From: a virus | Strand: one strand, 5' to 3' | DNA length: 64,000 nucleotides | Virus record (IMG/VR): IMGVR_UViG_3300037247_000810 | Span: 39,460-103,459 of that record | In this document: piece by piece, positions 51,646 to 55,600 of the stretch | How the letters are laid out: the number at the start of each line of letters is the position of its first letter | How positions within the stretch are numbered: the stretch's first letter is position 1 | Translations under genes and position numbers: made by a program | The notes under the pieces: generated by a model | What the model saw: the letters and a program-made list of their open reading frames with translations, nothing else | What the model was told of the DNA's origin: nothing | Database searches by the model: none

Positions 51646-51867
51646 CTAACTTACCTCCACCTGCTGAATCTCACTCGGCACAAGCTGGCCCGACCTAGCA
51701 AACTCAATGGCCCACCGGCCCGGTGCTTCAGGCGGACTTTCTACCATAAGACATTTCGTCGCGGCATGGAACGGGCAATCAAGTAGGTTTGGACGGCAGG
51801 ACAGCGGGTGCTGGAGGCTCCAATCCGTCTCAGTAACTTCCAGAATGTGCAGATTGTTGGTGCTCAT
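51646..51867 (-). CDS. Hypothetical protein, 73 aa
   Basis: Start at ATG 51867 (MSTNNLHILEVTETDW) overlapping the polymerase end. Cysteines in SCRPNLLDCPFH and CLMV. Confidence 0.5.
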   Translation of the reverse strand: MSTNNLHILEVTETDWSLQHPLSCRPNLLDCPFHAATKCLMVESPPEAPGRWAIEFARSGQLVPSEIQQVEVS

Positions 51868-54464
51868 GCGGCGACCTTCTCCTCCTCCTCGCACGGGCGG
51901 CACTTATCCGGTGCGCCCTCATGCACTTGCGCTCCCTTAGTGAGATGGTGGCTCACGTCCTCCCACGCAGACCCCCATTCTACATCCACAGGCACGATCC
52001 ACGGCCGCCCGACACGAGCCGTCTCCTCGTAAGCCGAGTCCTGCATGACCTTCTGGACGTAGCGAGCTACCTCCTCAGCCTTCTCCACCGCGACCTCCAT
52101 CATTACGCTGTCGTGGATGGAAGCCACGATCCATGCTTCATTGTCGCACAACCACTGATCTCGGTCAAGCCGGATGGTCGCCAACGAGTGAATATCCGAG
52201 GCGCTGGACTGGACGGGGAAGTTATAGCTCTCGCGGTAGACGTGGCCCATCTGCTTCTTGTAGCCACCGAAATGCTTCATCGTCTCCACGCCCCAGAACA
52301 GGCGGCGACGGTCGAAGATATTGTAGACCTCGTGCCGGTTGCGAACAGTACGGCGCTGCTTGGCGAAGTAGTCAGGCAGCTTCTCGACGATGCCAAAGTA
52401 CATATCCAGAAGCTCGGCGGCCCGCTCCCTCGAACAACCCAACCGCTTCGCAATAGTCACTTCGCTCATCCCGTAGCCCAGGCCGAAGTTGAAGGTCTTC
52501 GCCTGGCGGCGCTGCTCCTTCGTCACCTGCGTACCATCCGGCACCTCGAACAGCTTGCGGGCCACGAAGTCGTGCACGTCCGCGCCGCTCTCCAGCACCC
52601 CGATCAGCCGCTCGTCCTCAGCAATGTACGCCAGGCCCCGCAACTCAATCTGCGAGAAGTCGGCGGACAGCAGCACACGACCAGGCGGCGCGATGAAGAT
52701 TTCACGGATGGGCGCGCCCTCTTCGGACTTGCCCTCGCCGACGACATTCTGGATATTCGGGCTGGCGCTCAGGCGGCCCGTCTCGGTGCCGTCCACGCGA
52801 TAGTTGGTGTGCAGGCGGCCGTCCACCTTCGAAATCTTGTTCAGCAGCCCCTTCTTGGCCTTCTCGCGCTGCTCCGGCTTCGCGCCTTTGAGGAAGGTCT
52901 TCATAATCTGTTCAAGGCCCGCCAAGCGGATCAGGATGGGGACAATCGGGTGCGAGCCAACGCCGACCTCTTCCAGCGCCTCCTTTTTCACACTCGGCAG
53001 CCGCGCCTTGTCCGTGAGAATGCCCGACGGCTCCAGGCCCAGCCCGCCCTCGGAGGGCTTACCGAACAGGAGCTTGCGCTTCTGCTGATCGCTGCGGTAA
53101 TTGAACTTCTCCGGCACTTCCGGGATGTCATCCAGCAGCGCCTTCTGCTCTGCTACCAGCCGGTCATAGGTCTCGACCAGCGCATCCGCCTTCTCCTGAT
53201 CAACCAGGACGCCGTGCTCCTCCATGTGCATCGTCGCCCCGGAGAGCGGCATGGTGACGTTCTCGAACAGCCACCGGCGCTTCGGGTTAGCATCGAAGTC
53301 CTTGTCGATTTCCAGCGCCACCCGCAGCGTGCAGTCTGCGTCACCGCCCTGGTACTTCCAGAGAATGGCCAGCGGACAGTCCGCCATGTGTGTCTTGTAC
53401 TCGGCGGCCCCACGGCCATAGTCCCCCATATTCGTGTACAAGTTGCACAGAATCTCAAGGGAGTGGCCCGCCTCCTCGTTGATTAGGTGGTAGGCGAGCA
53501 TCGTGTCGAACGAGATGTTCTTGAGGTAGATTTCGAGGTCGTGCGCGAGGTATAGCTCGTCGAACCTGATGTTCTGACCGATCTTCGGCACGTCGCTCTG
53601 GAAGATGCGGCGGAGGGCGCGGATCACGCGCTTCTTGTCGGCGGGCGACCACATCTCCTCGGCCCCCAAGCCGAGCACCGGCACGACGTAAGCGGTGCCG
53701 ACCTGCCAGGTGACGCCGACACACAGGATATTGCCGGTCTGCCAGTCCAGGGAGGTCGTCTCGGTGTCAATTGAGAGCACACCCGCCTCGGTCTCAACCA
53801 ACTCGGCTAGGTGCTCCACGCTCTCCACATCGAGGCAGACCTGGTACTTGCCCAGGCCCTCCTCGAAGACGTCGGGCTGCTTGCTCTCCTTCAAGGCTTT
53901 CTGGAGATCGGCGATGCCGTATTTTTCGTTGCTCCAGACATGGAAGGCAGAGGCCGGATGGAGAATGGGCACCATCTTCTTGCCCAATTCCTCCTGCCAG
54001 AGCACCGCGCCGCGCAGCCGCGTGATCGGCAGCGGCTTGCCGCCCTCGAACTTGGCCTCGTTGTACAGATTCTCTAGGGCGATGCCACCGGCGGGAACAA
54101 TGAGGTCGGGGTCAACCCACTCCAACTCGTCCATGAGGAAGCTGCGGCAATTGCGTACCTCCTCCGGCGTCGGCTCCCGCTCCTTGTCCTCCTTGGCCTT
54201 GGGGCCAATGCAGCGAGTACTGTTGGCCCAGTAGACATCCTTCTTGGGATGGAAGCCCGCCGCGATCAGCCACCCGCGCGCCGTCTCACCAGCAGGGCCG
54301 ATGAACGGCTCGCCGCGCGCATCCTCTTTCTGTCCTGGCCCCAAGCCGACGAACGCGATCTTCGCGTGTCGAGGCCCGCGCCCATTGACAATAGTATTGC
54401 GGCTATCACATAGCTCCGGGCAGCGGTCACAGTCTAGGACTGTTACGCCGTCACGTTTGTGCAT
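51864..54464 (-). CDS. polA: DNA polymerase I with N-terminal uracil-DNA glycosylase domain
   Basis: 866 residues from ATG 54464. Residues 1-200 are a family-4 UDG: CDRCPELC, FVGLGPGQKED, GEPFIGPAG, ANSTRC, NCRSFL and ILHPASAF, including four cysteines for a 4Fe-4S cluster. The 3'-5' exonuclease follows (SIDTETTSLDW near 230). The polymerase has motif A LLSADFSQIELRGL, motif B RRQAKTFNFGLGYG and motif C VASIHDSVMMEV. No 5'-3' exonuclease. Role: phage replication, with the UDG domain possibly checking uracil. The start overlaps the upstream methyltransferase gene. Confidence 0.92.
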   Translation of the reverse strand: MHKRDGVTVLDCDRCPELCDSRNTIVNGRGPRHAKIAFVGLGPGQKEDARGEPFIGPAGETARGWLIAAGFHPKKDVYWANSTRCIGPKAKEDKEREPTPEEVRNCRSFLMDELEWVDPDLIVPAGGIALENLYNEAKFEGGKPLPITRLRGAVLWQEELGKKMVPILHPASAFHVWSNEKYGIADLQKALKESKQPDVFEEGLGKYQVCLDVESVEHLAELVETEAGVLSIDTETTSLDWQTGNILCVGVTWQVGTAYVVPVLGLGAEEMWSPADKKRVIRALRRIFQSDVPKIGQNIRFDELYLAHDLEIYLKNISFDTMLAYHLINEEAGHSLEILCNLYTNMGDYGRGAAEYKTHMADCPLAILWKYQGGDADCTLRVALEIDKDFDANPKRRWLFENVTMPLSGATMHMEEHGVLVDQEKADALVETYDRLVAEQKALLDDIPEVPEKFNYRSDQQKRKLLFGKPSEGGLGLEPSGILTDKARLPSVKKEALEEVGVGSHPIVPILIRLAGLEQIMKTFLKGAKPEQREKAKKGLLNKISKVDGRLHTNYRVDGTETGRLSASPNIQNVVGEGKSEEGAPIREIFIAPPGRVLLSADFSQIELRGLAYIAEDERLIGVLESGADVHDFVARKLFEVPDGTQVTKEQRRQAKTFNFGLGYGMSEVTIAKRLGCSRERAAELLDMYFGIVEKLPDYFAKQRRTVRNRHEVYNIFDRRRLFWGVETMKHFGGYKKQMGHVYRESYNFPVQSSASDIHSLATIRLDRDQWLCDNEAWIVASIHDSVMMEVAVEKAEEVARYVQKVMQDSAYEETARVGRPWIVPVDVEWGSAWEDVSHHLTKGAQVHEGAPDKCRPCEEEEKVAA

Positions 54465-55374
54465 GACCCGCAATCCTCATGATTTGTCGGCCTACATACT
54501 CTGCTACTTGAGGGACGACAGCATTGCCGAGTCCCCTAAGTCTGTCCACCCTAGCGGGAACCCCATGAGCCATTCGACCCACGTTGGGTTCAATTTTCCA
54601 CCAGTCTTGTTCTCTAATCGCTGTACTTGAACAGTCAGCATCAAAGGTACGGTTCCTCGCTTGTGTGCCGGAGCATCGCAGTGATTGTGCGATCCGTCCC
54701 CGGCTTGCGGAGTCCGCCACTGCCTCACGGCCCTCTGCAAGTCCATCATCCCGGGCGGCCCCGTACCCTTCGCGTACTGCCCGCTCCGATGGCGGTTCGC
54801 CGCTCGTTTCTTCGCAGCCATCCACGCTTTTTCCGTCCGCCCGTCGTAGGTCTGTTGGGGCGTGGGCCACATCACATCCCGAATCGGTGTGGGCAATAAT
54901 GAAGACTCTGTTTCGGAGGTGTGGGGCTCCAACGTCTGCTGCCGACACACAACCCCATCCCGCATCGTACCCCAACGAGGAAAGGTCAGCGAGGACGAAT
55001 CCCATCCCTTTAGTAAGGAGTCCTGGGACGTTTTCCACAAGGACGTAGCGGGGTCGAAGTAGACCGATGACACGGGCGAACTCTGGCCAGAGCCAACGCG
55101 AATCGGCTTCAGCTTGCCGTTTACCCGCTGTCGAAACTGGTTGGCAGGGGAATCCTCCACAGATGAGATCGACTTTCGGCGTTGTTTCATCTAGCTCCCT
55201 CACATCCTCGTAGCAGTGTACGTCAGGCCAGTGCTTAGCCAGCACCTTGCGGCAATAGGGGTCGATTTCGCACTGCCAGATGATCTCCATGCCCGCCCGC
55301 TCCAAGCCCAAATCGATACCGCCAATACCAGAAAATAGGCTACCTACTGTCAGAGCGCCATCAAGTTCGCGCAT
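54451..55374 (-). CDS. dcm: DNA cytosine-5 methyltransferase
   Basis: 307 residues. Motif I GSLFSGIGGIDLGLERAG, motif IV GGFPCQPVS with the catalytic Cys77, motif VI ENVPG (114), motif VIII RNRVFIIAH and motif IX-X RLRGLGNAVVPQVAEYVG are all present, a complete enzyme. Likely protects phage DNA from restriction. A second frame overlaps residues 62-290. Confidence 0.93.
   Translation of the reverse strand: MRELDGALTVGSLFSGIGGIDLGLERAGMEIIWQCEIDPYCRKVLAKHWPDVHCYEDVRELDETTPKVDLICGGFPCQPVSTAGKRQAEADSRWLWPEFARVIGLLRPRYVLVENVPGLLTKGMGFVLADLSSLGYDAGWGCVSAADVGAPHLRNRVFIIAHTDSGCDVAHAPTDLRRADGKSVDGCEETSGEPPSERAVREGYGAARDDGLAEGREAVADSASRGRIAQSLRCSGTQARNRTFDADCSSTAIREQDWWKIEPNVGRMAHGVPARVDRLRGLGNAVVPQVAEYVGRQIMRIAGHAQT
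54504..55190 (-). CDS. Overprinted frame inside the cytosine methyltransferase gene, 228 aa
   Basis: Same strand, different frame, starting MKQRRKSISSVEDSPANQF. It holds SLWKTSQDSLLKGWDSS, FPRWGTMRDG, WPTPQQTYDG and KLNPTWVEWLMGFPLGWT, a pattern I know from separate phage proteins usually next to dcm genes. The whole frame is nested in dcm. It could be truly translated, or could reflect an ancestral fusion of frames. No separate ribosome site was found. Confidence 0.55.
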   Translation of the reverse strand: MKQRRKSISSVEDSPANQFRQRVNGKLKPIRVGSGQSSPVSSVYFDPATSLWKTSQDSLLKGWDSSSLTFPRWGTMRDGVVCRQQTLEPHTSETESSLLPTPIRDVMWPTPQQTYDGRTEKAWMAAKKRAANRHRSGQYAKGTGPPGMMDLQRAVRQWRTPQAGDGSHNHCDAPAHKRGTVPLMLTVQVQRLENKTGGKLNPTWVEWLMGFPLGWTDLGDSAMLSSLK

Positions 55375-55600
55375 GTCCCCCCAAGCCAGTCAGTTGCTCC
55401 GCCGCCTGCGCATTCATCTCGGCGGCCGTGATGGCGTGCTTCCCAACTCCTCCCCTAAAGTTGCGGGCCACTCCGCAATGACGGCAGTGGCCCGGCGCAG
55501 ATGGTGTTGACTTCGAATCGATGACCCAGCGGTGGCGCTTCGTGGGCGATTCCTCGCAATAATGAGCGCAGCCGGGGGCGCAATTATGAGCCACGATCAT
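55361..55600 (-). CDS. Zinc-type protein, 79 aa
   Basis: MIVAHNCAPGCAHYCEESPT and GHCRHCGVARNF. Probably a treble-clef finger. ATGA overlap upstream. Confidence 0.55.
   Translation of the reverse strand: MIVAHNCAPGCAHYCEESPTKRHRWVIDSKSTPSAPGHCRHCGVARNFRGGVGKHAITAAEMNAQAAEQLTGLGGHART

Follow-up and report, generated by a model that had tools for sequence, protein, structure and literature searches.

Among the C5-cytosine DNA methyltransferases described so far, the closest to the locus analyzed here is M.EcoHK31I, a two-polypeptide enzyme that recognizes YGGCCR; the likeness concerns the described motif layout and the presence of two polypeptides. Its smaller chain is reportedly read from a second frame within the gene for the larger chain, and M.EaeI has a similar nested arrangement. 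The larger chain of M.EcoHK31I contains motifs I-VIII and X, the smaller chain contains motif IX, and the predicted recognition domain has been placed in the alpha, not the beta chain (PMC3404938). Another natural two-chain C5-methyltransferase is M.AquI, which has been reconstituted in trans and the subunits of which are described as split within the variable region. In the multispecific C5-methyltransferases of Bacillus phages of the phi3T/SPbeta type, tandem recognition cassettes, each about 40 aa long, lie between motifs VIII and IX. References on multispecific enzymes are cited in two further papers (PMC4081073; PMC12707154). No paper describing a class of methyltransferases in overlapping frames was found in the literature searched, which lay outside most subscription journals, and therefore REBASE specialists may know part of what is reported here. 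The overlap is not discussed in the passages searched of publications that deal with overlapping genes, with methylases of mycobacteriophages or with phages of P. larvae.

A virus contig of 103 kb contains the window, i.e., the whole stretch of 64,000 nt that was analyzed, in which two ORFs, designated M and N, overlap on one strand. The earlier note had reported a nested ORF of 228 codons in another frame of the methyltransferase strand. Its coordinates and the ORF itself were verified (ATG at 55190, stop ending at 54504), and both peptides that had been quoted, one of them FPRWGTMRDG, occur verbatim in the translation of N. Each N codon begins one base after an M codon, and therefore the free third codon position of M is the second position of N, which is always amino-acid-changing. 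The following features, all on the minus strand, were assigned:

54451-55374 (-): M (alpha), the C5-cytosine methyltransferase ORF, 307 aa, with motifs I-VIII and X and without motif IX
54504-55190 (-): N (beta), the nested ORF, 228 aa, in the +1 frame relative to M
55195-55200 (-): Shine-Dalgarno-like AGGGAG, 4 nt upstream of the N ATG and within M codons
54883-55362 (-): catalytic core of M, residues 5-164 (motifs I-VIII), HhaI large-domain fold, pLDDT >90
55141-55149 (-): PCQ nucleophile codons of M
54876-55172 (-): N1, N residues 7-105 (SPAN...YFDPATSLWKTSQ...FPRWGTMRDG), which overprints M motifs IV-VIII and is conserved in A1
54606-54899 (-): TP-module region, N residues 98-195 (LLPTP, WPTP and WRTP modules), candidate target-recognition cassettes
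54607-54879 (-): M residues 166-256, the canonical position of the target-recognition domain, unconserved (about 0.68 bits/column), pLDDT <50
54543-54596 (-): motif IX, KLNPTWVEWLMGFPLGWT, N residues 199-216, assigned by motif scoring
54457-54537 (-): motif X, LGNAVVPQ plus the C-terminal helix, M residues 280-306

It has to be considered that N is a shadow, kept open and seemingly conserved by the conservation of M, high GC content and codon bias. The region is indeed GC-rich and has relatively few stops, and N-frames that were shuffled by synonymous recoding of M stayed open for 122 codons on average. Nevertheless, when the codons of M were permuted synonymously in 77 relatives (200 times each), none of the 15,400 resulting N-frames matched the ORF of the window as well as the real frame did (z mean 8.9, minimum 5.2). 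The frame was then followed in 240 relatives. As the 80 viral loci chosen as the best relatives of N might introduce a selection bias, 80 viral loci chosen by M (profile A2) and 80 bacterial or archaeal loci from genomes (profile A1) were added; the two viral sets share about seven contigs. The N profile was found in the identical relative frame in 80/80 loci of each of the three selections. In contrast, only 2 of 74 canonical chromosomal C5-methyltransferase loci, collected by TIGR00675 searches of genomes, contained the profile at more than 20 bits, and the longest open run in the N frame had a median of 60 codons in these controls versus about 246 in the overlap loci. In the recognition-domain region conservation is even higher in N than in M (1.05 versus 0.68 bits/column).

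The fourfold-degenerate sites of M yielded the same picture. In 97 disjoint pairs of homologs, a few of which include near-duplicate contigs, their identity was 68% in the overlap compared to 50% upstream of N (Wilcoxon p 5e-12). Between the window and its closest relative, 63% of these sites were identical inside the overlap (n=76) and 22% upstream of N (n=18). Canonical enzymes divided at the same point did not exhibit a rise (37.5% upstream, 34.7% downstream). The nested frame is not commonly broken by stops in relatives, which the earlier note had named as the observation that would speak against two proteins: N is distributed over two or more ORFs in just 2/240 loci, in which M is interrupted as well. 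Apparent breaks of N in loci L026 and L068 turned out to be stops near the start of N, with the remainder of N intact. The recoding, fourfold-site and canonical-control comparisons thus led us to reject the shadow interpretation, which we regard as extremely improbable. They indicate that the overlap is real and not due to chance, and that both frames are under selection, and together with the enrichment of Shine-Dalgarno sequences described below they strongly support the proposal that two meaningful proteins are encoded by the same DNA.

M matches the Pfam family DNA_methylase (PF00145, 2e-45), belongs to phrog_363, which is labeled DNA methyltransferase, and its sequence matches HhaI and HaeIII over motifs I-VIII. 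Motifs I, IV (PCQ), VI (ENV), VIII and X are present. It had been stated that the methyltransferase frame keeps all of its motifs, but motif IX and the small domain are absent from the chain. In the structure model of M confidence is high for residues 5-164 as well as for the motif X helix at the C-terminus, while residues 166-278 are unstructured (pLDDT <50) and a folded small domain is lacking, and the Foldseek alignment of the model to HhaI was confined to its large domain (about 163 of 327 residues). For N, none of the Pfam and NCBIfam models matched above chance. A homology search of the nested frame retrieved phrog_1008, which is also labeled DNA methyltransferase, and the same is true for 70/70 N proteins of A1. 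PHROG treats phrog_1008 and phrog_363 as two families and does not state that the two halves overlap. Searches for relatives of N with solved structures resulted only in chance-level sequence matches (glycolipid transfer and Kelch proteins), and the model of N alone is poor (pLDDT 58.7, pTM 0.26).

When a scoring matrix built from the C-terminal KLNPTWVEWLMGFPLGWT of N was slid over 57 canonical C5-methyltransferases, it landed on motif IX (RLTPRECARLMGFPD) in 49 of them, 15-35 aa and mostly 20-22 aa upstream of motif X. Column-shuffled matrices were placed on motif IX in 4.2 +/- 3.3 of the enzymes (maximum 17). In the opposite direction, canonical motif IX scored about 14.2-15.7 bits in N, -0.7 bits in shuffled N and -5.9 to -6.1 bits in M, which was scored just ahead of motif X. 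The best match of canonical motif IX was the WLMG site of N in 161/166 loci. By this scoring, motif IX resides in N and is missing from M. In addition, N was never found as a stand-alone gene without an overlapping methyltransferase among the 240 loci. As N accompanies an overlapping methyltransferase in all of these loci and contains the motif that is absent from M, the two ORFs most likely represent the two halves of a single enzyme. The interpretation given in the earlier note is thus supported in part: the coding of two meaningful proteins is strongly supported, but the view of N as a phage protein of its own that happens to lie near dcm genes is not, and the statement that the methyltransferase frame keeps all of its motifs is incorrect for motif IX.

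It has to be weighed against this that N might be a separate effector overprinted on M, e.g., an anti-restriction protein or a factor that regulates or inhibits the methyltransferase, and that its likeness to motif IX is a convergent shadow. We regard this as unlikely. The N-alone model resembles no known fold, and N1 remains conserved in phages with a complete single-chain M, both of which would fit an effector, and the latter also counts against N as a mere supplier of the small domain. On the other hand, motif IX is found at exactly the canonical place and is missing in M, N homologs of phages with split enzymes run in-frame into motif X, and the modules of N occur within the methyltransferase chain at the position of the recognition domain (see below).

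By analogy, N and M most likely form one split methyltransferase like M.EcoHK31I. As in that enzyme, the larger chain has motifs I-VIII and X and the smaller chain has motif IX, and a smaller chain read from another frame within the larger gene, which is also the reported layout of M.EcoHK31I, is present in the window and in 240/240 relatives. Two differences are apparent. While the recognition domain of M.EcoHK31I was placed in alpha, recognition-like modules are here found in the overprinted N, and residues 166-256 of M are unconserved and disordered in the model. Furthermore, M.EcoHK31I is part of a restriction-modification system, whereas the M/N locus is probably a phage orphan. Plasmid searches did not yield a match that was recognizable as EcoHK31I. 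In comparison to M.AquI, M and N are nested frames instead of subunits split within the variable region, and motif X is located in the large chain M, while it is in the small subunit of M.AquI.

The start of N bears on how the second chain would be produced. Among 369 N-frame ATGs near the start of N in the relatives 21% are preceded by a strong Shine-Dalgarno match, compared to 0/79 in the M+2 frame, 2% of 44 in the M frame and 4% of 1386 inside N, and 45% of the loci have at least one N-frame ATG of this kind near the start of N. In the window an in-frame TAG immediately precedes the ATG. The enrichment and the position of the TAG argue for internal initiation, and N likely starts at its own ATG. 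Alternatively, programmed frameshifting from M could join the catalytic core to the recognition region of N in one fusion protein, in line with the overlap of the two frames along the entire N and with several phages that have the recognition region and motif IX in the M frame. Such a fusion would skip N1, which is conserved upstream of motif VIII, and the Shine-Dalgarno sequences at the N starts and the TAG in the window likewise speak against it, so that we regard frameshifting as quite improbable.

Between N1 and motif IX, N contains modules of roughly 30-50 aa with the motif [W/L]xTPxxxD...L..xV. One to eight TP motifs per N protein were found in nearly all loci, and none in five with the pattern used. 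The module types recur, at varying positions, across N proteins that are otherwise diverged. In gp76 of mycobacteriophage Rita the TP modules, then motif IX and then motif X follow motif VIII in a single chain, and this order shows that TP modules occupy the recognition-domain position of single-chain enzymes. The TP modules are therefore candidate target-recognition cassettes, each of which may read a target. Judged by their descriptions, the TP arrays of N may be comparable to the tandem cassettes of the multispecific Bacillus phage enzymes, but unlike those cassettes they are encoded in the other frame. The longest TP array among the annotated phages examined, with about eight modules, was observed in gp82 of Arthrobacter phage PrincessTrina, an N homolog (L254, 642-2739).

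Three architectures were observed among phages. In the nested architecture (A) M contains motifs I-VIII and X, and N contains N1, the modules and motif IX; members are the window, Aubs, the Paenibacillus phages Jacopo and Shelly, Escherichia NTEC3 and Xanthomonas BsXeu269p/3. In architecture B the enzyme is split with a partial overlap, M containing motifs I-VIII and N containing N1, the modules, IX and X (Rebeuca, Shida, Alma, Lilbooboo, Abidatro). For example, in the mycobacteriophages Rebeuca and Shida M ends after motif VIII and the N homolog runs into motif X in its own frame, a layout similar to that of M.AquI. In architecture C M holds both IX and X, while the other frame still contains an ORF with N1 and modules (Rita, Hamulus, Ailee, MidnightRain, JKSyngboy, Raleigh); in Rita, Hamulus and Ailee modules are also present in M. 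Judged by motif content, the cassettes, motif IX and motif X occur in either frame among phages. The retention of N1 where M already holds IX and X implies that N1 has a role beyond supplying motif IX or the small domain. Frames with N1 and TP modules that are open and conserved in overlap with an M with IX and X are located in L251 (968-1426), L252 (668-1600), L257 (938-1288), L258 (1045-1830) and L259 (851-1588). N was not found in the Dmt of the Klebsiella slopekvirus PSKm2DI.

Taken together, the locus very probably encodes one orphan phage C5-cytosine DNA methyltransferase that consists of two polypeptides, M and N, in overlapping frames. We infer the following course of events. M, the alpha chain, would bind S-adenosylmethionine and bear the catalytic Cys, ENV, motif VIII and the motif X helix. 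N, the beta chain, would be translated from the internal, Shine-Dalgarno-preceded ATG and supply the small domain, contributing N1, which perhaps docks on alpha, motif IX, and the tandem TP modules, which would act as target-recognition cassettes. Both chains would assemble into one active heterodimeric enzyme, in which N sets the choice of targets and which would methylate the phage DNA, probably as a protection against host restriction. A wider proposal is that of a widespread class of phage C5-methyltransferases in which exchangeable recognition cassettes lie in the overprinted frame and cassettes, IX and X switch frames between the chains, so that in a single stretch of DNA one frame encodes a fixed catalyst while the second one provides for variable specificity; we give it a little better than an even chance.

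The genes near M and N encode a polymerase A with an N-terminal uracil-DNA-glycosylase domain, RuvC, RecA and an SMC-like ATPase, and no evident restriction gene was present among the neighboring genes tested. This suggests that the enzyme is an orphan and probably has an anti-restriction function. Two of the adjacent ORFs deserve a remark. The ORF at 51864-54473 (-) contains a domain of the uracil-DNA-glycosylase superfamily (residues 31-184), a 3'-5' exonuclease and a family A DNA polymerase, and is thus a UDG-polymerase fusion. Just upstream of M, at 55364-55600 (-), lies a Cys/His-rich ORF of 79 aa (GCAHYC...HCRHCG) without a Pfam match.

Long gene overlaps on the same strand count as rare among bacteria and phages and are suppressed by gene callers. 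The overlap of about 200 codons was found in viral contigs, in phages of Mycobacterium, Paenibacillus, Acinetobacter, Escherichia and Xanthomonas, and in prophage-like loci of several bacterial phyla. Three aspects appear to be new according to these sequence comparisons, namely, that the rare arrangement is a large conserved class that spans several bacterial phyla, that the overprinted frame holds putative recognition cassettes, and that cassettes, motif IX and motif X seem to move between frames in phages. Although the overlap is conserved in hundreds of phages and bacteria, the second gene is usually missed by annotation, and predictions of the methyltransferase that consider only M would overlook the putative DNA-reading half. 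One prediction is that the annotated M ORF, when re-coded for expression, would yield an inactive enzyme. The coexistence of intact, split and single-chain versions represents an unusually clean system for the study of shared selection between two frames.

The annotation of these loci is inconsistent: for Shelly the nested ORF is listed as "g55 internal gene", while for other phages two methyltransferases or one are given. The methylase of Gordonia phage Ailee (L250, 166-2040) is annotated as two joined pieces around a LAGLIDADG endonuclease gene (608-1006), and the gene apparently contains an intron or an intein. The methyltransferases of the Streptococcus phages Javan374 and Javan369 have 164 and 171 open codons, respectively, in the relative frame of N (L260, 1562-2053; L266, 1562-2074), with weak matches to the N profile (29.9 and 10.2 bits), and the overprinted frame may thus extend to more distant methyltransferases.
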